In this document: piece after piece, positions 12,301 to 62,200 of the stretch
Layout: each line of letters opens with the position of its first letter
Position numbering within the stretch: position 1 is the stretch's first letter
Assembly: GCA_964019415.1 (NCBI GenBank)
Contig: OZ025888.1
Coordinates: 1,951,045 to 2,015,044, forward strand
DNA length: 64,000 nt
Direction: 5' to 3'
From: Ianthella basta
Taxonomy: Eukaryota > Porifera > Demospongiae > Verongiida > Ianthellidae
Position numbers and translations under genes: made by a program
The notes under the pieces: model-generated
The model's input: only the letters and a program-made list of their open reading frames with translations
Told to the model about the DNA's origin: nothing
Database searches by the model: none

Positions 12301-15153
12301 ATTGACGCTGACTTGTGCAACAGGAGGGTCTATGCGTGTTGGAAAACATAGTAAACTATATACATAGACAACAGATTCAGCTACAATAAGTGAAGTTTAT
12401 ATGTATAGCTATGTGTATATATGCACCAACACATGCTGCGCAGTGTGAGGCTACATTTCTATAATACAAAACTTATTATTACAGAATATAGCACTAGCTA
12501 CGGAGGGGTAGCCTGCAAATTATGCAAACATGAATTACCTAATACATTTCAGCTGGCTAAAAGTACCTAAATGCAAGTGAACATTTTCCAATTGAATCTT
12601 ATAATGTGTAGCGCCAATGTGGTGTATAGCTGCTCTGAAGTGCATTGTGCAAAATTCTGTTTAACTGCATGAGTCCCATACATACCAATTACAATGACAC
12701 TGAGTGAACTGGAACTGGATCCAACTGTGTTCTGGGTTGAGCACACATAACGTCCATTATGAGATGACGTGAGGTTGGAGATGTACAAGCGACCAATGAA
12801 CTCATTGCCACTGATGTAGGTGGAGGTAAAGCTTCCTTGGACACTACCTCCATCATGCGACCACTGGAAGGTGACTGGGTGGCTACCTCTATTGACATTG
12901 CAGTAAATATTGAGGTATGCAGTCCCTTTTCTGGGGAGGATGACCTTGTTGTCTGTAGCTGAGGAGGTCAGACTTGTAATGGCAGGCCGAGCTGAAAGGG
13001 AAAAAACAGACATATGGCCTTACCCACAAAATACTGCTATTGCTATGGCAATGGGTACTAGTACTAATATAGCATAATTATTACTCAAAATCGTCATAAT
13101 GGAGCGTATGCAAAGTTTAATAGAAATTGAAGTAAAATAAATTGAAGTCCCACATGTGACTGTGTCATAGCTACGTAGCTACACATTCTTGAATATTGTA
13201 AGAGCACTGTGTACAACAGTTAGCTATAGATCTGTCATACTTGGAAATTGTACTAGACAGTTTCACTCTAAGCATATATGAGTGACTACAGTTACAAACC
13301 TTGTACTTTCAGTGTGTATCGCCCTCTGCTCCTCCCTGCCCAGTTGGATACCTCACAAGTGTACACTCCTGCACTGCTAAACTGGACAGAATTGATTGTG
13401 TAGGCACTAGATGTGGCACGTGATATGGTTGTACCATTGTGGTACCACTTGTACTGACGGGGATGAGTGCCAGAGGCAGAACAATACAGAGTGGCACTGT
13501 GACCAGGTAGCACTGTATTTGACCTTAGGCCTGAGGACTGCACAGAAATGCCCACACTGGAGGGTACAGCTGTGTGTAGGTGTGAGAATGAACATTAGGG
13601 ACAGTATGGTAATGGCAGCATTGCAAGACTTAACAGAAGTATTCTCAGCAAGTTATAATCATGACATACGTAATGTATAATGGTATTTTATGTGGTTATA
13701 TAGGGTAAAGAAATCAAAACTACAATATAGTACACCATAGCAATTGACAGCAACAATGAGCAGTTATGTGTGTCAAAATCGTCCAGATCCACACATTGCG
13801 TGGATCTGCCCGGTTCACAAGAAAAGTATGTATAATATTGTATTTCATAGAAATAATATTATTATATAAGGATGCATATGTATAATTATATGTACAAGTA
13901 TGTACTATCCATTAGTTTGCTGAATAAGTTCTACTCGAACCCTGTGGCATAGACCTTGCACCGCTTGGGCAAGCAATTGTGATTTATATAGGATCCAAGG
14001 AGAGAGAACCCAAGGTGCCATCTGAGCCAAACTATCAAGTGACCATAAGACTGGTCTCTCTTCCTGGCTATCAGGGAGACAGGCATGTGTTGGTTTGCCC
14101 AAAACCTTTGTGTCTCATTGTAATTACTCATCTTTCACTATTAACGTGTACTCAGTCTGATTAAAATTAACTAATGTGCAAGGTGTGCATGGTTGTTGAT
14201 TGCTATTTTATTATGATTAGGTGTCTATTTAGCAAATAATTAGATGAGCAATACTGCAGCTTGAAGAAAGGAGGGTCGCAGGAGTTTCGGCTTGAAAGCC
14301 TTTGTCAACTACGAGCCGAAACGTCCTGCAACCCTCCTTTCTTCAAGCTGCAGTATTGCTCATCTAATTATTTGCTAAATCTACAATCACAGCTATGAGC
14401 CTCTACCGAATCATCGTTAGGTGTCTAGTTTATGAATGTTTCCTCTTGCTCAATTAACTAGTTCTAACTAGTATACAATGCATGTGCACAGACTGTAATT
14501 ATTTTACTGGCAATAATTTAATTCAGTGATAAACAAATTTCAATGGCACAGATTTATAATCACATACTAACTTACTGAAGACTTTTACTGAATAATATAT
14601 GCAGGACCCATCCCCTGTTGAACACGTGACTCTAGAGTCTGAGTTTGCTGCATTTCTGTATATCAGCCAGGACCTCTGCACTCCAGCATTATTGGATGGG
14701 TTGGTGATCACCTCCCTCTGACTACTAACAGTAGTATAGCTAGACCACCTTACTGGAGCAGTGCCCTCACATTCCAGGACCAGATCACTGCCATAACTAA
14801 CACTCACAGAAGTGACTGTACCTGAGCAACAAATCAAGTAGAGGTTCTTTCAGTACACATACTGCAAGTACATATAACATATACATATAATGTATAACAA
14901 TGTACGATATAATATATAATGTATAACAATGTATATTAACCTCTGCATATTTACATTTAAGCTAGTAAGAATTAGATTATAGATTGTAGAGTGTGGCATA
15001 GAACAATCCATAATTATACAGTTCTCTTCATCAGTGTGGACCATCACAGCCAGTTAAGGTCTTACAAGCTTCACTCTTGGTCGCCAGTACAACCAGCTGC
15101 AGCAACATTGTTCCGCCACAGATTAAACTGAAGAAGTGCTTGCTGATCCCCAT
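9341..15153 (-). CDS. Receptor B: five Ig, one FN3, membrane helix, ITAM-like tail
   Basis: Nine exons: 15153-15066, 14821-14576, 13569-13300, 12991-12686, 12329-12069, 11642-11343, 10909-10604, 10348-10216, 9992-9341. They join in frame to 853 aa. The architecture is identical to receptor A, exon for exon; Ig2 (270 nt) and Ig3 (306 nt) have the same exon lengths. The signal peptide core is GGTMLLQLVVLA. The membrane helix is TLVLVAVAVVIILVVVGC, followed by RRTKKRR. The tail carries DPHYTPL, ten residues later PYAAL, then REYAVPPDAISKP, and ends SVAEHVKNLEKR. The Ig2 donor (AAG|GTTTGT) is weak, so that domain might sometimes be spliced differently. Intron 2 contains a large palindromic repeat (14227-14380). 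The role is inferred as for A. Confidence 0.82.
14227..14380. repeat. Fold-back repeat with hammerhead-like core
   Basis: Arms of about 64 bp (14227-14291 and 14315-14380) are near-perfect inverted copies, for example GCAAATAATTAGATGAGCAA on the left and its complement on the right. It lies in intron 2 of receptor B. The left arm read on the minus strand holds a complete hammerhead-like fold (14277-14313). The right arm has only the 3' half (GCCGAAACGTCCTGCA). Confidence 0.75.
14277..14313 (-). ncRNA. Degenerate hammerhead ribozyme-like fold
   Basis: Minus strand: stem I CGTAG (14313-14309) with CTGCG (14281-14277), one wobble pair; core TTGACAA in place of CTGANGA; an unpaired A; stem II GGCT/AGCC with a four-base loop; then GAAAC. 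The G of the expected GTC cleavage triplet is missing. The stems are kept but the core is damaged, so self-cleavage is unlikely. Confidence 0.45.
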
Positions 15154-16978: not shown

Positions 16979-19900
16979 TTACGGTGCTCCTTTTTCAAAG
17001 CGTTTGGCAAGTTGAGCAACTGAGGTCTTCTTCCCAGCTGGATCTGTCCCTCCTCCAACTACATTCATTGCTGCAGCCTGGTGCTGTGAGGCTGCAGGAA
17101 GACTGAAGGACTGCTTTCCTTTCCCAGTTTGTTTGGTGGCAGCAGACAAGACATTAGTGGTAGCTGGCGTTGGCACACTGCTTGCGCCCCTTGATGTGGT
17201 GGTGCGATTTGTGATCTGGATCGGTACAGCTGGTGCTTTCCTCTTAGGAGTAAGTTTACGCACTGAGTGAGTAGCTGGTTTCTTGCCATCAGGTGGTACT
17301 TTAGGTGGCGCTGTTTTCTCCTTTCTGGTACTGCTAATCTTTGAGCTCACTTCACTGACTGCCATTGCAGTTCTACAGTTTGCAGATTTACCAGAATCTC
17401 TTAACGCAGTAGCCGCTGATCTTGCAGCTGCATCCTTGCCATTAAACACATTGGACTTGGGAGGAAAGGTAGAGGTTAAGAATGCCGTAGGAGATGGTTT
17501 CTTATCTCCCAGAGCCACTTTAGGTGGCAATAATATATTCTTTCCAGCACTGTTTGTCATTGAGCTTGCTGTAGCAGTACTCGGGCTTGCAGCATTACTC
17601 ACACTATCCAGTGTGGTAGCCACTGGCTTTGCTGTATCACTGTCAACAAACCCACCAGACACTCCTACCGGTTTGGGGATAGCATCGGGCGGCACCATGT
17701 ATTCCCTGTAAGAGCTGTCGCTGTCAAAGCTGTAGGTGTCTTCGTTCCACTCCACCTCTGTACTGGTGTACCTCAGAGAGGCATAGGGACCACGCGGTTC
17801 AACCTTTCCCATATTCAGTGCAGTATAATGATCGTGGTCTTTATAGTCCAAGTCTAATTCTGGATCCCGAATGTTGTAGCTACACAGACCAGAGAAGGGA
17901 CACGCACATGTGCAATATGGTGTCATTATTCTTAAAATTATTAGCATATCATAAGGGTATTAACTGACTTCTGACTCTGAAAAAGTTATACAGTATGTAT
18001 AGCACTGAATTGCTGTAATTTTAATTTTCAAAGTAAAAAGTCACACATTGTTGTCTGTTTGTGCACATTTTGTTTATGTGACCAAATGAATGATTGATAC
18101 CAATTTGTGTAATTATAAATTATGAAAGTTGGTACTCAGGTGGTATATGGTGAGCCCTCTGTGCAGGTGCATAACTAACAATTATATTCAATCCACAGTT
18201 GATTCAGCTATATAGGCTTTAGCTTTCTTCAGGGCACAGAAATTGACTTCAGTTAAAATATTATCGCCCCCTGCCTGGAAATATGTGGCAAAAATTCTCT
18301 CATGGGCAGATATACTAAAACCATAATAGTTACTCTCTCTGAAGAAATATTCAAGAGTCACTGCGATTAATGGGCATACCAGCACACTGCTAGCTATCCC
18401 ACAACAGCACTACAGCTATGTACTACCGCATAGCATTAATAGTAAAGACTATTTCCAGTACAGCCTAAGTTGCATCATAGTCATTTGCTCGCCTATGCAG
18501 TCAAGGCAGCTCATATTTGCAGCATACTGTTTTAGCATCAATTAGGTATATATATAACATTATAAAATATTATGTTTATTTCCCTCAAATTTCAGCTTGA
18601 TTTATATACAAGTACGTACACAATTGCACTCACTTATTTTGAATCCTCCTCCTATTCTTCCTCCTTTTGTAGATGCATCCAACCACAATCAGAATGACCG
18701 CTAGTGCCACTCCCACCAACACTAAGGTACTTCCAATACCACTTATAAGGGTAAACATTTCTCTGTCCGCTGCACAATTAAGATGGAAATACGACAATCA
18801 TTGAAGAGCGATGAAACTATTAATATTGAATGTACATGATCACAAATATACATGCTTTATACAATACTTGTATTAGAGTCACAATGCATAATTATAATTA
18901 AGGTAATTTGCATTATAAGGTAATTAATTTGCAGATTATCACTATACCACTTAAATTTCATAATATTATAATCAACTTTCAATTTACCATTATTGCAAAG
19001 AGAGGCTCACATTATAAATTCTTTGATTCATTTTGTATAATCAATTCACATAATTTATCACATTCATTATATTTTGTATCTCACACATGACGTTGACTAA
19101 CCACTGTCACCCTGTCACCTCCATACAATTAACATTTGCATGCTGTAAGCCACACCATTAAAGAAGACAATTAACAGGTCACTGTCAAATGTTGATAAAG
19201 TGTAATAAAACCCTTGGCTATACATTCTGCAAAGATCTCTGCGCAAAACAGCATATAGCTAGCTAAAAGCCGTATTGTATTAGAATGACTATAGTACAAG
19301 CAAACAGCAGCAAATGAACTTTATCCTCTGTGTACAGCTGTGGAGTGGCAGTCAGCTATAGTTAATATTATTATAACGGCATTGTGTAGCTACAGTACAT
19401 GTTACTTGACCATGCATGACTGCATGCTGCTTACCCTGCACCATCACAGGCTTTGAATACGGACCAATGCCAACACTGTTCTCTGCAGCAATTTGCAAAG
19501 AATACAGTGAAAATGGAGTTAGATTGTCAAGGGTATAAGTGGTAACATTATCACTCGTATTGAGTGTGTTAAGAAGTTGGCATTTATCGTGGCTGGAGCC
19601 ATCACAAGTGGCCAGACGGAGGTGATAGTACAGAATTGAGTAATGGTTGTCCTCTGGTTGTGCCCACTGCACTGTAGCACTTCTGATCATCTTGCTGGTC
19701 ACTTGAATTGAGTTGGAATCCACTGCCTCAGGAACATCTGAAAAGGGTGATGAGTATAATTATACTACAGTAATTGAAGTGAGGGCTTCTCAGCTGGCTC
19801 AGGCATCAGAAAGGGTTGGTTCTCTAATACCAGCTTCACAACAGGGTTGAAAACCTTGCAAGGTTTTCAACCCTGTTGTGAAGCTGGTATTAGAGAACCA

Positions 19901-21734
19901 ACCCTTTCTGACTACAGTAATTGCAGCAAAATTGCTTGAACTGTCACTTCAGTATATGTGCATATATGCATGTTTGCAAATTGATGGATTAGGCACTGTA
20001 TACTTAATGTATACGTAGTATAAATGTAATGAATAAACTTACACACTACATCAAATGAACCTATACATTTTTGACCAAGGATTTAGAGTTTGAATAAGCC
20101 ATGGGGCTGCATTTGCCTAACAGTAGTTACACACACAATTGTCACGCAGTCCTAAGAGCACTCACTATACACTTGTATGGTCACACTGCACTGGTCCTGT
20201 AGTTCCTCTGTGCTGTTGCTCACAATACAAGTGTAAATATTGCCATCATCTTTGTGTGTTAGCTGTTCATGTAGTGCCTCCTTGGATATATTCATTGTGG
20301 TCGTTGTATTTATTTTAGCATAATAAACAGTCCAATGTGCAATGAGATGTGGTGCTCCTAGGCATTGAAAGAGTCTGGTTGTGCCATTCAGAACCTGGAG
20401 CACTCCACAGGGAATTGATGTACCATTGGCACTGACATTAGCGACAGGATGGTGGTCTACAAACATGTGAAAGAGGCATAATTATACAATTGTTATAATC
20501 AAGCAATCATGCCAATTCTGCCACAGGTTTGTTGCTAGATACTAACACATCTTGTAGGGTGACGGTATACACACATACATACATGGAGTGATATAGAGTA
20601 CACCTAAATCTACTGCTGGTTGACAGCTAATATACAGCATGTTCAGCTGCAGCCCAAAATTGTAGAATACATATCTGAATCTTGGCTGGCGTCCGGATCC
20701 TACCACAGTAGTTGAATACATTTTGGATTTTCTATATTCATATACGCTAGCTTGCCACCGGGCACTGCATGGGCTCCCTCCTATGTCCTTGTACATTAGG
20801 AAGTTAACCCTCGTGCAGGCATTAAGTGACGTGTAAGTATGGACAATGGAACGCAGGGGCAATTGCAATTGGAACACCTTTCAGCTCATGACAGTGAAAT
20901 GGGCAATTGAAAGATCTGTGTTGTCTTAGCTACCTCAAGGCTACAAACGTTAAAGTGGTAACTGAATTTAGCGTTTGATAATTCCAGGACTTGGCAGGTA
21001 CCGATCGATTTTAGCAATTTTTGCACTACTCGCAAAATCGCTAAAATTACTATGTACCTGATACACATTATTACTTGGCAACTGACATTCGCTGTGTGGG
21101 CTTCTGGCCTCGATCGGTGGGCATTTGTAACTTAGTATGCGTAGTATATGTACAACACCCACGCAAGCGACAATATGAAAGCAAGCAGGCCCCTCTGACA
21201 GCGCCGTCTCCGTATTACTCCGTATACCGTGCATGGCCTCCTTACTATAGGCCTACTAACATAACATGGCGATCGATAAGCGGTCTACAGCCTGGCGTCC
21301 CTGGCAATAGTGCAGAAGCACGAGCTAGCGTTACTTATCCAGGTCATGTCTACGACTACATGGGTAAGGTGTTCCTCGATCGTTTGTCCGCCAACACTCC
21401 ACGGTGGACATAGGTATTCAGCAAAATTCCTCAACTGAGCGTGCGTAGGCATGCAAAAACTATTTTGTTCCAAGATAGAGCCGATTAACCTCTTGACGTG
21501 TAAATTACGTACGACGACATTCTATTACAGCTAGGAAGGTCAGACAGTGACGGTGTGAAAGCGCTCGCGAACGGTGGACAGAACTGTGTATACAAAAGTG
21601 TACAGTTACATGTGCTTGAGCTCTTTACAGCTTTACATACCCCTCCACTTACTAGCTTCACTCCTGATCACCAATACAGCCAGCAGCACCGTGCTTCCAC
21701 AGATTAGACCAATGAAGCGACGGCTGATCTCCAT
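16979..21734 (-). CDS. Receptor C: one Ig, one FN3, membrane helix, ITAM-like tail
   Basis: Five exons: 21734-21653, 20456-20166, 19737-19435, 18769-18634, 17879-16979. They join in frame to 570 aa. The signal peptide core is ICGSTVLLAVLVI. The single Ig domain corresponds to Ig4 of A and B (shared NVSANG, VLNGTT, FQCL, YTCIVSN). FN3 and the membrane helix (TLVLVGVALAVILIVVGC) follow. The tail is longer than in the paralogues: HYTALNMG, ten residues later PYASLRY, then REYMVPPDAIPKPVGV, an extended Ser/Ala/Pro/Lys region, and SVAQLAKRFEKGAP at the end. I found no trace of exons for Ig1-3 between 20457 and 21652, or of Ig5 between 19738 and 20165. Because every domain exon is phase 1-1, losing them keeps the frame. 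It is the copy nearest the intact importin gene. Confidence 0.8.
19777..19923. mobile_element. Snap-back SINE-like insertion with 13-bp target duplication
   Basis: The 13-mer ACTACAGTAATTG occurs at 19764-19776 and again at 19911-19923, flanking a 134-bp insert. Most of the insert is a perfect palindrome of 106 bp (19806-19911, no spacer). The left part has tRNA-promoter-like stretches, TGGCTCAGG (box A-like) and GGTTCTCTAATACC (box B-like). A retroposed SINE that copied back on itself would explain this. It lies in the receptor C intron where the Ig5 exon is missing. Confidence 0.6.
20680..21590. other. CpG-rich block in intron 1 of receptor C
   Basis: CpG dinucleotides are frequent here (for example CCTCGATCGGTGG, GCGATCGATAAGCGG, GCGCTCGCGAACGG), while flanking introns have almost none. 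It contains a hairpin at about 21008-21052 (ATTTTAGCAATTTTTGC against GCAAAATCGCTAAAAT). It replaces the interval that holds Ig1-3 in A and B. It could be a CpG-island-like regulatory block or an inserted foreign element. No convincing coding frame was seen. Confidence 0.5.
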
Positions 21735-30512: not shown

Positions 30513-38913
<8,401 letters not shown>

Positions 38914-52859: not shown

Positions 52860-55800
52860 TACACATTTGGGTGTACATGTGCTGCCATGTTAACCATTGC
52901 ACTGCCTCTTTTGCAGTTAATGGCTATACACCATCAGGCTTTCAAGTGTTTGATGTCGCTAGCACTGGGTTCCGAGTTTCATGGGTGGCCCCAAATGATG
53001 GTATTCCTGCACAGTACAATTTGATGTATCGTGCAGTGGACTCACAGAATACAACTGTGAAGATGTTCAATGGTGCAATCCTGCCCAATCCTACCATTGG
53101 CAATCTGCTTCCTCAAACGACATACTCTGTACAAGTGGAAGCAGTGTTTAATCCAGCTCCACCACAGTCCAGCACCACAAATGAGTTTATTGTAACAACT
53201 TTACCAGGTACGTGTATGTTGTGCACTTACTGCTTCACTATTGGGACATGCAAATCCATGTGTACAGTAGCTGCGTGATTTCTTGTGCCCATTGCACAAT
53301 GCACAACTGTTCACATGTGCTACAGTACATGTTATCCTTAATATCACTTAGCGCACATTGCCCTCTTTTCACTCCATGTTTCGAGAGAGAGTGACTCGGT
53401 TAAAGAGCGAAGTGATATTAAGGATGTCATGTAGCACGTGCATAGTGTACTATCATACTATCAGCATTGAGCAAACTATGGATATCGTGCAGCTACGTAC
53501 ATGCTGTAGTACACCTTGGGACAGTGCATTGGCGTCTATCTATTCCTTAGCTACACTCCATTTGTGTGAAGCTGCATGCCACATCAACAAAATGGTGGCA
53601 CACTGTGAGATGTACAAGTGTGTGCATTTTGGTAGGACCAGGAGTTAGAGCAGGTGCAAGTGTATTGCATTAATGTCTCTTCAAAGTCTCTATGGGAAGT
53701 CAATATTCTACAGTTGTTTCCATACGTACATACACTTTTTCACATACAGTGTATGTACTTGCTACAGTTTCCTGGCTTTCATTGGCATATCTGTACTTGG
53801 TTTGCAAACCGTAGGCAACACTTTTAAGCTATCTCTCACTTGAGTGTATAGTACATTGTGGCTGTATGTGCATAGGTGAAACAAGCTCTGTACAGAAACT
53901 CCTGGAATCTTTCCTCCCTACTAGCTAAATACCTGCCCTTTGGGTGGGTTCCCAGCATAATTTTATTGTTTGAAATTTGAGTGTTGAACCAATGGAAACT
54001 GTCTAGTTGGGAGCATTCCATAGACTCACTCCGTGAAACTCTATGCGCACAGAATTTACTTATGTTAATCCATTTGTCTAAAAGAGTCCAGTGGCGAAGG
54101 CCCTACGTAACTACCTTAGGTCACCCCCCGTATTACCGTGATATACTCTTCCAAGTTTGGTGAAGAGTAGTAGAAAATTGAAGAAGGAGTTCACAGCAAA
54201 CACAATCTTTTCTCTATCTCTTAGATAGGGCGGCGACTGTAAAAGTGGCAAGAACTTGGATGGAATGACTTTAATCCACATTTTGGCTCGACCAGATTAC
54301 TCTCACTACACCTCTTCGTAGTCCTAACATGTTTTGTGAAGCTCCATCCAGAATTGAAGGAGTAATTCCTGAACATTGAAAAGTGTGTTACGTTAATTAT
54401 AATAAAATTGTGAATAGTGAAAATGGAGGAATGGGTCTGGGCTACATGAGACTGGCTACATACAGATGTTCATATTGTAGTAAAGAGCATTCATGCAATC
54501 TGGGGTATCCATGGTAATGTTGTGTATTTATGCCTCCTTCCCCATAGATGGACCTCTTGCCCTACAACTGTACCAGAACCAACTGTCATCCTTCGAACGT
54601 CCTGAAGATATTACTGCTTGTGGAACTGCTTTTACAGATGTAATGCGGAACACTCTGTTCTTTGGTGATTTTGGAGTTCAGAATGTGAATGGCAACCTGA
54701 CAAGTACGTGTACTGCACTAAGTCTTGTTGAATTGTTGCATTTTGTGATAATTGCAGTTCTCTCTACATGCAGGTTTCAGTTATAACTTGCAACTGAGGC
54801 AGATTTATTACACAACCACAAATAGCTCCATTTTCTCAATGTCATACTCTGTAAGAGAAGGCTCATTACCCCTTGTTGAAGTTGAACAGGAACAGAGGAT
54901 CCTGGATCGAAGTCAAGCTCTGCGCTCTCTGCAGTATGATTGGACCAGTGGCCGACTGTACTGGATTGAGGATGAGACTATGGTAGGACCCTGTAGCTTT
55001 TATACTGCAGTAGTCCATCTCCTTCTTTGCACCTGTACCTACCACACCCGCTCATCTTTCCTTGGGCCTCCCAATTCTCTGTCCATTTATTGTCTTCCAC
55101 TTGAATTTCCACCATGAAGCACATATTGGCACACAACTTTCGTGATCTGCTCCTATTTATACAGTATGTATTGCTATGTATACTGTAGTCTTCTACTGTA
55201 GCTATTGCATACACATTTTGTGATCTGCTCCTATTTATATAGTATGTATTGTATGTATACTATAGTCTCCTACTGTAGCTATTGCATACAAATTTTGTGA
55301 TCTGCCCCTATTTATACAGTATGTATTGCTATGTATACTATAGTCCATGATATTGTAGAAGCTCACAGTTGCGTTGATGATACACAGATACGAGATTCTT
55401 GAGCAAGACACAACTGATAATGATAAATCAATCAAAGCAGGACGTTTTGACCCAAAGGTCTTTGTCAACTGCGTACAGGATTTGATCAATTTATCATTAT
55501 TAGTTGTGTCTTGCTCAAGAATCTTGTATCAGTGTATAATCTAGTCTCCTACTGTAGCTTTTGCATACACATTTTGTATCAGCTCATATACATGTACGTA
55601 TACAGTATGTATAAATTGTGTATACTTTAGATTGCAACCAGTCAGGCAAATGGCAGTGGCATCCAGTCTGTTCTTGTTGCGGGTTCCGTTGTGGAAGACA
55701 TTCAATTGGACCCAGCACATGGGTTAGTGAAGGAAGGGAGGAACTAGTAAGAAAGGGATGATTGGTGGTCCATGCTGTGCAAGTATGGAACATGTGTGTG

Positions 55801-59246: not shown

Positions 59247-62200
59247 CGTGCATTTATGTATGTAAGTATGTGTCAGCTTTAAGACGGCTCTTTTGTCCTG
59301 CTTTTTGCAGTGGAGAAACTGTGATGCCTGAATTGGAACTTGGGTAAATAACACGCTTTTTACTCACTGTGCACATGCCCACATATTGCTGTATTGTATA
59401 GTACGTGTGGGAGGAAGTATGCTTGAGATATGTCAATGTACATACATGTACTACATAGGAGTGTATCCATGTGTATGTGAATGAATGCCCAGTGAGTGTA
59501 TGTATGTGCCTAATGTGTTGTACTGTATGTGTCCCTATCCGGCAGCTCATCTGTGCCTCGATGTGCCCTTTCAGTCAGTAATGGTGTCCTTGCAATGAAA
59601 GTGGGGAATGTGAACGAGATATGGACTGTTCCGGTAGCTGTCTTCAGCTTCCTTCAAGTGGACAGCTCCCCAGGACTGAGACGCTCCAGTTTGCCTGCTG
59701 GAATGGGAAGTGGAAATGAGATATATGACATTGCATTTCAGCAGTCTGATGCCATCGGACTGGTGCCAAGTAGGCTACAAGCACAACTTGTCTGCACAAC
59801 TAGGCCATAACCCAAGTGATCATGTTAGATTTGTTCTCATTCACATACACTCTGCCATGCACTGAGCTGTCTCGCTGGGTGATTTATACACTTGCACTAC
59901 CAGCAATACTGTACAGTTTCTATAACTTTGTATGTACTGTACCTTTGTCTGAGAGTGATAATCCACCCATTTCAACATGACCAAGAAGGCAGCAGCAGAG
60001 CAGAGTAGGCCTAGGTGATGTCAACTGTTGACACATTTATGACAGTACATGAGATCAACAGACACCAATCTGACCAGTGTAGAAGTACTATTAATTGTGT
60101 AGTCCTGTTGTTTGTTCAGTCTTACTCTGATGAAGGCCAAAGAATTGTGGCCGAAACGTCAGTAATCCTTTTTGAATTATTGCATGGTTCTACATTATTG
60201 ATCACTTGGAGCAAGCTAAACCGAGGACAGCCTACAAGCGGAAGAAGTACAGGGAGAGACTGGCCAAATTGCTTGACCGAGGCAAAGAACACCGCAGAGA
60301 GGACCAGCCGCAAGGGAAAGGATTGGAAAACAGTCAGAAGGTGATGCTGTCACAGTGTACCATGCAGCAGGAGGGAGATCTGTCCCAGTCCAACCAGTGG
60401 GTCAAAGTCAGCAATATTTACGAAGAATTTACCCCCCCCCCCCCTCCAACCCCACTATTTTCTTTTCTTTTTATTGGTCACACCCCCTGTACACATAACA
60501 ATGTTTCTGATTGGCTAAACACATGTACACATAATCCTAGAATTTGATTGGTCACACAGTCACCCATAGCTATATAAACCAGTCCCACACTGTACATTCT
60601 CAGTTTTGTACGCAGCTGACGAAGGCCTTCGGGCCGAAACGTCCTGCATTCAGTTGTTGAATAATCTGCTACGTATTGCCCACAAACTATTCGCTTACAA
60701 ATATACGTACTGCTGTAGCATGCTATGTCATTGTCTATTGTGAGGTGCGTGCAGTGTATGTATCTGGGCTTGGATTTCTACTTTCCCTCTTCAGGTTTGA
60801 GCCCTGCTTCATCGGCCATACCTGGAGCACCTATCCCTAATGCAACTGATGGGAGTGCAGCACTGGATGTCATCACAATTCATTGGTCTGCTATAGAGTT
60901 TACTCTCTCCCCTGTCATGTACAATGTGATGTACACACTGATTAGAACCAGTGGCAGTGTGGATTCTGACAGTGAAATGGTGAGCTATTTGACAGTGTAC
61001 TGTTATGTGAGAAACCTAAGCCTTGCCGACTATCTGGCTGATGAATTTACTTCTGATGTTTTATGGCATAGTCTAACAGACCTAAGCTAGTACTGTACCT
61101 ACTGTACATGCAGTAGTAGTGTGACTCACTGACAATGAGACTAGTGGATATAGCATGCCATCAGGAACTTGAGATAAGAAGAGGAAGATGCAATTAGCAC
61201 TGTGCCAAAGGAGTGGGAAGCCTTACTGCAACACTGAAGAGAGAGACAAAGAGGGCTGTCCTGTTTCTTGCTCTGTTGCCAAAGGTTCCCCACAAGTTAC
61301 TTATGTACACACAAACACTGATCAGAACAGATGAATTGGGCCCGTGTACAAGATGATAGACTGCCACCAGTTGCCTATTTGGCCACTTTGGACACCTAGA
61401 TTGTAAATTATTAACAGATAAACTTTCAGCAGTGTTATACACATTCTGTCAGGATGAATGCATTACTTCACTAAGTACCTACTGTAAGCCAAGGTTGTTT
61501 ATATTTCTTCTGTAATGGGCTCTGCAAGGGTGACAATAGAGTGAGGGCAATGTCCACTGTCCATTGTCAAACAACTATGCATGTGTGAAGCTACTGTACA
61601 TATTGACAATTGTAGTGATTGAACAACTTTAGCATACAACCTCTGCTGGTGTATTACGTACATACATACTAGTGTGCATACGTATGTAGCAATGGCTTTG
61701 TTTTCATTGTGTCCCCTCTCCATTTCCTTCTCTGTTCATCCTCCAGACAACAATAACATCGATTGTCCTTGAGAACCAGACCCCATACACCAATGTGGAA
61801 GTCACTATTAATGCTATGTCCTACTGGGGCTCGTCAGACAGCCGCACTTTCACCTTCTGCTCAACCTCTGCAGGTCAGTTGGATGTTGCACATAGTAATA
61901 TACAACATACCACATATTATCGGCTATAGGCAGAACATTAGAGTGTTGTGACTTGAATGTAGCCAACTGACAGGCTGACCAGGACCTCTCTGTAATAACA
62001 CTTGCTTAGAAGGCTATACGAATGTTGGTAAACTTATGTAGAAACTACATGTCACTTAATTGTGCACTAGTTTGTGTGTGAGGAAACAACTGGAAGCTGC
62101 CGAAATTAGGGAGGCTCCTGTTGAACTTTCAGCACATACATTAACAGATGGTGATGCAGGTTACAGCTTTATCAATGTGGTGTGTCAGATACTTTTGTGG

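Follow-up and report, generated by a model that had tools for sequence, protein, structure and literature searches.

Hammerhead-like motifs with an extra core adenosine in Penelope-like elements of the sponge Ianthella basta

The hammerhead-like motifs described here, which lie in a 64,000-nucleotide stretch of contig OZ025888.1 of the sponge Ianthella basta (hereafter the window), are, judging from their own sequence and that of their carriers, hammerheads of Penelope-like elements (PLEs), an already known kind. Their core departs from the consensus in two respects, an extra A that is nearly fixed and a U3-A8 pair found in hundreds of copies, and both departures are real. As an explanation of the whole, I hold it likely that these are minimal type I PLE hammerheads that cleave as dimers, in elements that prime cDNA on two strands and in part from cleaved templates. 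In the families examined, a PLE unit would comprise, in this order, a TATA box, a start site 9–14 nt before the motif, the motif and a tail of about 55–90 nt, within which reverse transcription would start. Two RNAs would pair over the 4 bp of ACGT, and the resulting dimer would be cut after GTC (or GTT). The element protein would prime cDNA on both target strands, from two start sites about 31 nt apart, and the two cDNAs would meet head to head, leaving inverted repeats. The cDNAs would often reach the transcription start or beyond; in a minority of cases both templates would already be cleaved and both cDNAs would stop at the cleavage site.

Minimal type I PLE hammerheads reportedly have as their primary papers Cervera & de la Pena 2014 and Lunse et al. 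2017. They are described as lying in pLTRs and lacking helix III (PMC7761336, PMC6155905), as do the motifs found here, and one of these sources mentions the proposal that they cleave themselves through dimers (PMC7761336). The present set differs in that A10 is almost fixed and that several families have U3-A8, a difference for which novelty in PLEs is not claimed. A 2020 review calls the in vivo activity and role of PLE hammerheads a mystery (PMC7761336).

Intact and decayed motifs in the window

The F3 motif at 60612-60647 reads GCAG-CTGACGA-A-GGCC-TTCG-GGCC-GAAA-CGTC-CTGC. The letters and the extra A given for it by the initial annotation hold at every position; the core is intact, and stem III amounts to 2 bp without a loop. 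The motif and its surroundings comprise:

60612..60647 (+): hammerhead-like motif of family F3; an identical core is found elsewhere in the genome
60612-60615/60644-60647 (+): stem I
60616-60622 (+): CTGACGA
60623 (+): extra A between A9 and stem II
60624-60627/60632-60635 (+): stem II, with loop TTCG
60636-60643 (+): GAAACGTC
between 60643 and 60644 (+): predicted cleavage
60313..60697 (+): F3 PLE promoter/pLTR-like unit around the motif, from sequence similarity
60571-60577 (+): TATATAA of the F3 unit
60602 (+): A of the initiator-like TCAGTT of the F3 unit, 31 nt from TATATAA

The F3 unit resembles locus L061 (91%) and, from 60380 on, also L085; its tail extends 46–57 nt past the cleavage site. 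Alignments of short F3 copies start at 60600-60603, 31 nt after TATATAA, on TCAGTT, and these two elements (60571..60602) would form a promoter. A second motif with an intact core, whose stem II is GGCC/GGCC, was overlooked in the original list of copies:

60122..60165 (+): motif of family F4; stem I TTACT/AGTAA, unrelated to that of the 60612 motif
60127-60133 (+): CTGATGA
60134 (+): extra A
60153-60160 (+): GAAACGTC
59972..60189 (+): 3' end of an F4 PLE, 98.6% to L042

In L042 the motif lies about 110 nt downstream of a reverse-transcriptase (RT) reading frame. A search of the window with three PLE proteins returned no RT-like stretch. Four of the five window reading frames scanned match Ig, fibronectin III or ankyrin domains, as in animals.

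The initial annotation had united the 60612 copy with three others, at 36192 (+), 55437 (-) and 14277 (-), in a four-copy family. All four exist, and the stem II arms given for the other three are right (GTCC/GGAT, GACC/GGTC and GGCT/AGCC, respectively), but only 60612 has an intact consensus core, since each of the others carries C3>U, G8>A and one further lesion: A9>C at 36192, G12>A at 55437 and the loss of one G from GAAACGTC at 14277. Their cores read TTGACAA or TTGACAC, a U3-A8 arrangement that had gone unnoticed, while the extra A that the annotation pointed out is both real and almost fixed. The copy at 36192 belongs to the following feature:

36169..36327 (+): decayed F3-like copy; core TTGACAC, stem II GTCC/GGAT

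The hammerhead covariance-model search that had been suggested was run with Rfam. RF00163 matched at 18 places in the genome, 13 of them over the cut-off, and the eight inspected lack the extra A. In the window, Rfam gave no match at the gathering level, and around both intact motifs (60050-60750) it gave no hammerhead at E<=5; an Rfam hammerhead match is a detection threshold rather than a functional criterion. A strict pattern, CTGANGAAGNCN{4,24}GNCGAAACGTC, has 1184 exact matches in the 209-Mb host genome, against 0 in the reversed control and about 0.03 expected by chance genome-wide with equal base frequencies. These and the other genome counts given below are copies, not independent events. 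Chance is thus ruled out genome-wide as the origin of the motif; in the window alone the descriptor is weakly above, and near, chance level (3 matches, mean 0.57, with 3 reached in 2 of 100 shuffles). A related pattern in which stem II does not start with G has 42 matches, against 7 in the control. Matches in viruses or prokaryotes (6 IMG/VR stretches, 56 in the prokaryote collection) were treated as chance, about 39 being expected in the prokaryote collection with equal base frequencies.

Core departures and stems

CUGANGA, stem II, GAAA and NUH with A15.1-U16.1 are present in type I order, and A10 is the one departing insertion. The base after A9 is A in 1184 matches and another base in 9, one of which is really a deletion. 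A looser pattern without the extra base found 10 matches, against 4 in the control; inspected by eye, they comprise one true deletion, and in most of them the extra A has become G. Position 17 is C in 1184 copies and another base in 497 (95 T, 3 A and 2 G in the first 100 non-C copies listed). At L160 (G000:C1:15530171-15530299) stem II would begin with a U-U mismatch (TACC/GGTT), a feature reported for some natural hammerheads in PMC3088659.

When the extra A was sought alongside a stem III lengthened by four bases (GAAACNNNNGTC, the one longer form searched for), the genome gave 0 matches, in contrast to 360 for hammerheads that lack the extra A and have a stem III lengthened to the same degree (control 0). 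Within the tested range, therefore, the extra A is associated with the loop-less stem III, element type being confounded with both. The 360 hammerheads mostly contain, among the matches listed, an ACAG/CTGT palindrome (ACAGCTGT), and some occur in tandem 368–374 bp apart or as inverted pairs. They are likely, by their sequence, a retrozyme population in the same host, where a retrozyme-like set was observed (G000:C3:1345739-1346519 and similar; L001-L005, L151-L156). The non-LTR retrozymes of metazoans, described in PMC7229834, have type I hammerheads like these 360; they are a separate element type without the extra A, unlike the window motifs, which carry it. A retrozyme identity of the window motifs was rejected, their type being that of PLEs and not that of short tandem noncoding units with a full type I hammerhead.

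One extra A at the same place, between A9 and G10.1, is described for the CChMVd (+) viroid hammerhead (PMC3705267), where it moderately lowers the rate of trans-cleavage and a U is faster. CChMVd (+) is a viroid ribozyme; here the insertion occurs in a PLE motif with a loop-less stem III. I take this family of PLE hammerheads for a new variant or, failing that, for an unusually large collection of one that is rare elsewhere.

The second departure concerns the pair between positions 3 and 8, which is part of the three-dimensional hammerhead core (PMC2837043, PMC3088659). C3/G8 occurs in 1184 copies and C3/A8 in 42 (control 1). U3 is found in 354 copies, and the first 100 of these in contig order comprise 89 with U3/A8 and 11 with U3/G8. 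From 1184, 42, 89 and 11 the Fisher odds ratio is 228, a value that applies to copies and to the 100 listed of 354. The core tertiary pair of a type I hammerhead is thus kept, and U3-A8 is shared by three or more stem II families and is present at both ends of L233. Natural hammerheads in which C3 and G8 covary to U3 and A8 are described in several examples, with variants active in vitro (PMC3088659, Perreault et al. 2011); U3-A8, A10 and a loop-less stem III are combined here, a combination absent from the section of that paper on U3-A8. Near fixation of A10 beside a loop-less stem III, and U3-A8 in natural copies, offer hundreds of copies for tests of core tolerance.

The initial annotation had proposed that the stems covary, and had named genome-wide copies without stem covariation as one observation that would count against it. 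Stems I and II both covary genome-wide among 39 family representatives, which were picked by their 5' strands only from 66 distinct core contexts, at loci found with a fixed core pattern, and whose families share ancestry. In stem I, 3.10 of 4 pairs are kept, compared with 1.64 (maximum 2.33) when the 3' strands are exchanged among representatives; for stem II the values are 3.44 of 4 and 2.69 (maximum 3.00). Neither observed value was reached in any of the 10000 permutations (0/10000 for each stem). Compensatory changes are thus present in both helices, as in type I hammerheads. Stem III consists of two pairs, A-C/G-U, without a loop. Since ACGT cannot close on itself without a loop, stem III would form only between two RNAs, and a dimeric hammerhead is a plausible fit to the loop-less ACGT. 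In a computed two-strand fold the hammerhead dimer did not stand out.

In the minimum-energy monomer fold of both window motifs, part of CTGANGA pairs with CGTC and competes with the hammerhead. This fold lends itself to another interpretation, in which the motif would be a conserved extended hairpin, with GANG paired to CGTC, that has no ribozyme function and serves for instance in protein binding or as an RT landing site. Such a hairpin requires an N7-G16.2 pair, yet N7 is A in 14 of the 39 representatives. It also requires a G8-C15.2 pair, which the A8 families break while position 3 changes with them, and tertiary pairing of 3 with 8 belongs to the hammerhead and is no part of the hairpin. 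G at position 17 is, moreover, rare (2 of the 100 non-C copies listed). I consider the hairpin distinctly unlikely.

Penelope-like carriers

The motif is carried by four divergent RT lineages, represented by L039, L040, L042 and L233. RVT_1 is matched in the motif-adjacent frames of L042 (above the Pfam cut-off) and of L039 and L040 (just below it), and also in L233, which has an open frame of 804 codons with both RT and GIY-YIG. GIY-YIG scores are 24.3 bits in L040 (above the cut-off), 20.4 in L039 (below 22.6) and 22.6 in L233 (at the cut-off); the domain search reported no GIY-YIG in L042. Identity to L040 is 44% for L039 and 52% for L042, that of L233 to L039, L040 and L042 is 40–43%, and the overall range is 40–53% where lineages were compared. 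Of the 130 genome loci sampled, 17 contain RT-like sequence, most copies being short. The assignment to PLEs, which are defined by an RT with a C-terminal GIY-YIG endonuclease, follows from these four lineages, three of them with a GIY-YIG match. Spread by retroelements, as originally proposed, agrees with these carriers. The other hallmark of PLEs, inverted copies with a 31-bp tail on one side and short target duplications, is also found here.

The architecture of the insertions was already known from the descriptions of rotifer Penelope elements and of PAc, a Poseidon PLE of Anolis. The former have two inverted pLTRs, one of them with a 31-bp tail, as well as 8–10-bp duplications and a TATA/Inr in the pLTR (PMC3846280). 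PAc, like the present elements, has a hammerhead in its pLTR and two sites where reverse transcription starts, the 'tail' being the stretch between them, and both target strands are cleaved and extended (PMC11167929).

Palindromic insertions and cDNA ends

Two of the window copies, at 14277 and 55437, are the centres of inverted repeats of 61–62 bp. The initial annotation rightly placed them but did not recognise the palindromes as insertions of two inverted cDNAs. The palindromic features of the window are:

14227..14416 (no strand): palindromic PLE insertion of the U3-A8 GGCT family; inverted repeat with family tails
55376..55541 (no strand): palindromic insertion of the U3-A8 GACC family; degenerate minus-strand motif at its centre
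55313-55325/55599-55611: candidate 13-bp target duplication TATACAGTATGTA of 55376..55541
19775..19911 (no strand): F1 tail-to-tail palindrome, motif gone; each arm stops 1 nt before the predicted cleavage site

The first has a short tail (55 nt) on its left and a long one (91 nt) on its right, a degenerate motif on its minus strand and a partial motif on its plus strand, and is flanked on both sides by TTAGGTGTCT (14217-14226, 14417-14426). The plus arm of the second starts at tail position 5 and lacks the motif; with the candidate duplication its tails measure 115 and about 123 nt, without a short/long pattern. The third is flanked on both sides by CTACAGTAAT (19765-19774, 19912-19921); with the boundary set 3 nt further out, 7 shared flank bases are counted. 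At 53326-53433 there is a 27-bp inverted repeat with a 54-nt centre, without a visible hammerhead core, that belongs to another kind of element.

The F1 family, to which the last palindrome of the list belongs, has 1559 exact tails in the genome. A junction search with exact anchors and gaps up to 30 nt found 25 tail-to-tail palindromes. Of the 21 palindromes examined, the window's own included, two share their flanks and count as one, which gives 20 separate sites and, with four loci whose flanks were unchecked, 24 loci. Relative to the predicted cleavage site, 25 of their 48 arms end exactly on it; 9 stop 1 nt and 7 stop 2 nt before it, and the remaining 7 extend beyond it. Both arms lie 0–2 nt from the site in 19 of the 24 loci (18 of the 20 separate sites), and both are exact in 8 loci, with 1–20 nt in between. 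An arm runs past the site in 5 of 24 loci, three of which are flank-unchecked. At 17 of the 20 separate sites the outer flanks have at least 8 nt in common, a level reached by 2.1% of mixed flank pairs, and all 20 have one short (42–57 nt) and one long (84–89 nt) tail, the maximum of 89 being that of the window's reference locus with 3 nt of flank included. Motif-bearing F1 pairs, a few of which share an arm, have a short (35–57) and a long (83–88) tail in 21 of 22 cases and at least 8 nt of shared flanks in 16 of 22; the exception in tail length, L036 with a gap of 90, probably reflects wrongly paired arms at a locus with three copies. F1 tails are mostly about 53–57 nt (short) and 86 nt (long). 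The idea that the palindrome arms are copy-specific flanking DNA was rejected, the arms being family tails.

Palindromes could also arise by self-priming of one cDNA, or from an antisense template, instead of by priming on two strands. Such an origin was proposed for rotifer Penelope elements, whose description in PMC3846280 is matched here by head-to-head palindromes with short overlaps. A snap-back copy should, however, have identical tails at its two ends, and here one tail is short (35–57 nt) and the other long (83–89 nt) in 41 of 42 pairs (counted after removal of one duplicate site, some pairs sharing an arm); direct target duplications are present as well. In addition, work in vitro showed the PAc protein to cut both strands and to extend them (PMC11167929). 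Self-priming thus appears unlikely as the source of these insertions.

Priming on both strands would account for the pairs, and the positions at which the cDNAs end fall into two classes. A sample of F1 tails, made up of the first 100 listed of 1559 and tails from the earlier intact-motif loci, gave 132 tails, or 91 distinct contexts, once tails running off short loci were excluded. In 46 of the 91 the match has a length of 40–45 and stops shortly before the motif, 44 being the mode (24 tails). An end exactly on the cleavage site was seen in only 3, and two of these are arms of one tail-tail locus. The peak at the cleavage site is therefore confined to tail-tail pairs in F1, the family tested, and cleavage-site ends are unsupported as the main class, most F1 ends lying upstream of the motif. 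The mode at 44 is the A of ATCTTCGCC, 30 nt after TATAAATA, a TATA box present in all five F1 copies inspected with upstream sequence; in L233, TATGTAA lies 31 nt upstream of the A of TTTAGTTTTG. ATCTTCGCC is the likely F1 transcription start. At L050 and L057, inverted F1 pairs are joined as GGCGAAGATCTTCGCC: each cDNA stops at ATCTTCGCC, and the two overlap by 2 nt (AT). I interpret the main class as probable run-off at the transcription start of uncleaved RNA, which was also the conclusion drawn for PAc in vitro (PMC11167929), and the tail-tail class as probable run-off on cleaved RNA.

The tail-tail junctions are consistent with a genomic footprint of in vivo cleavage, by a minority route. 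For PAc, public RNA-seq gave no ends at the cleavage site (PMC11167929); here inserted copies end there. In the literature, no account was met of insertion junctions at a hammerhead site, in searches not aimed at such junctions. That both arms stop together would fit either two RNAs cut in one dimer or one cut RNA used twice.

The motifs might instead be remnants of a ribozyme that was active in the past and is now copied as an inert portion of the tail, with the GGC junctions produced by microhomology or by stalling of the RT. Most 5' ends do lie elsewhere than at the cleavage site, and a GC overlap can join 4 of the 25 junctions, with six more ambiguous, having a one-base gap. Yet microhomology does not explain the 8 loci with both arms exact and 1–20 extra bases between them, a stall at stem I should presumably fall before GGC is copied and not after it, and the covariation of the stems and of pair 3-8 spans families. 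An inert motif is in my estimation improbable. RNA ends produced by an alternative transcription start or a nuclease site at G1.1 are very improbable: the alternative would need to match the predicted ribozyme site to the exact base, and the F1 TATA box points to a start 42 nt further upstream.

A more specific proposal, which I put forward tentatively and hold to be rather doubtful, is that in PLE particles the dimeric A10 hammerhead, with C3-G8 or U3-A8, would co-cleave two RNAs and that the same pair would template cDNA from both target strands, so that cleavage and insertion would form one coupled machine with the palindromes as its footprint. A DNA footprint makes in vivo cleavage testable, and insertion junctions could reveal cleaved germ-line RNA in any genome that carries PLEs.

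A motif like CTGCTACGTGATTGCTCA occurs about 20–45 nt past the cleavage site in L031, L178, L188 and L233 and in the window at 60666-60690. It is common to several families with different stems and may mark the start of reverse transcription.
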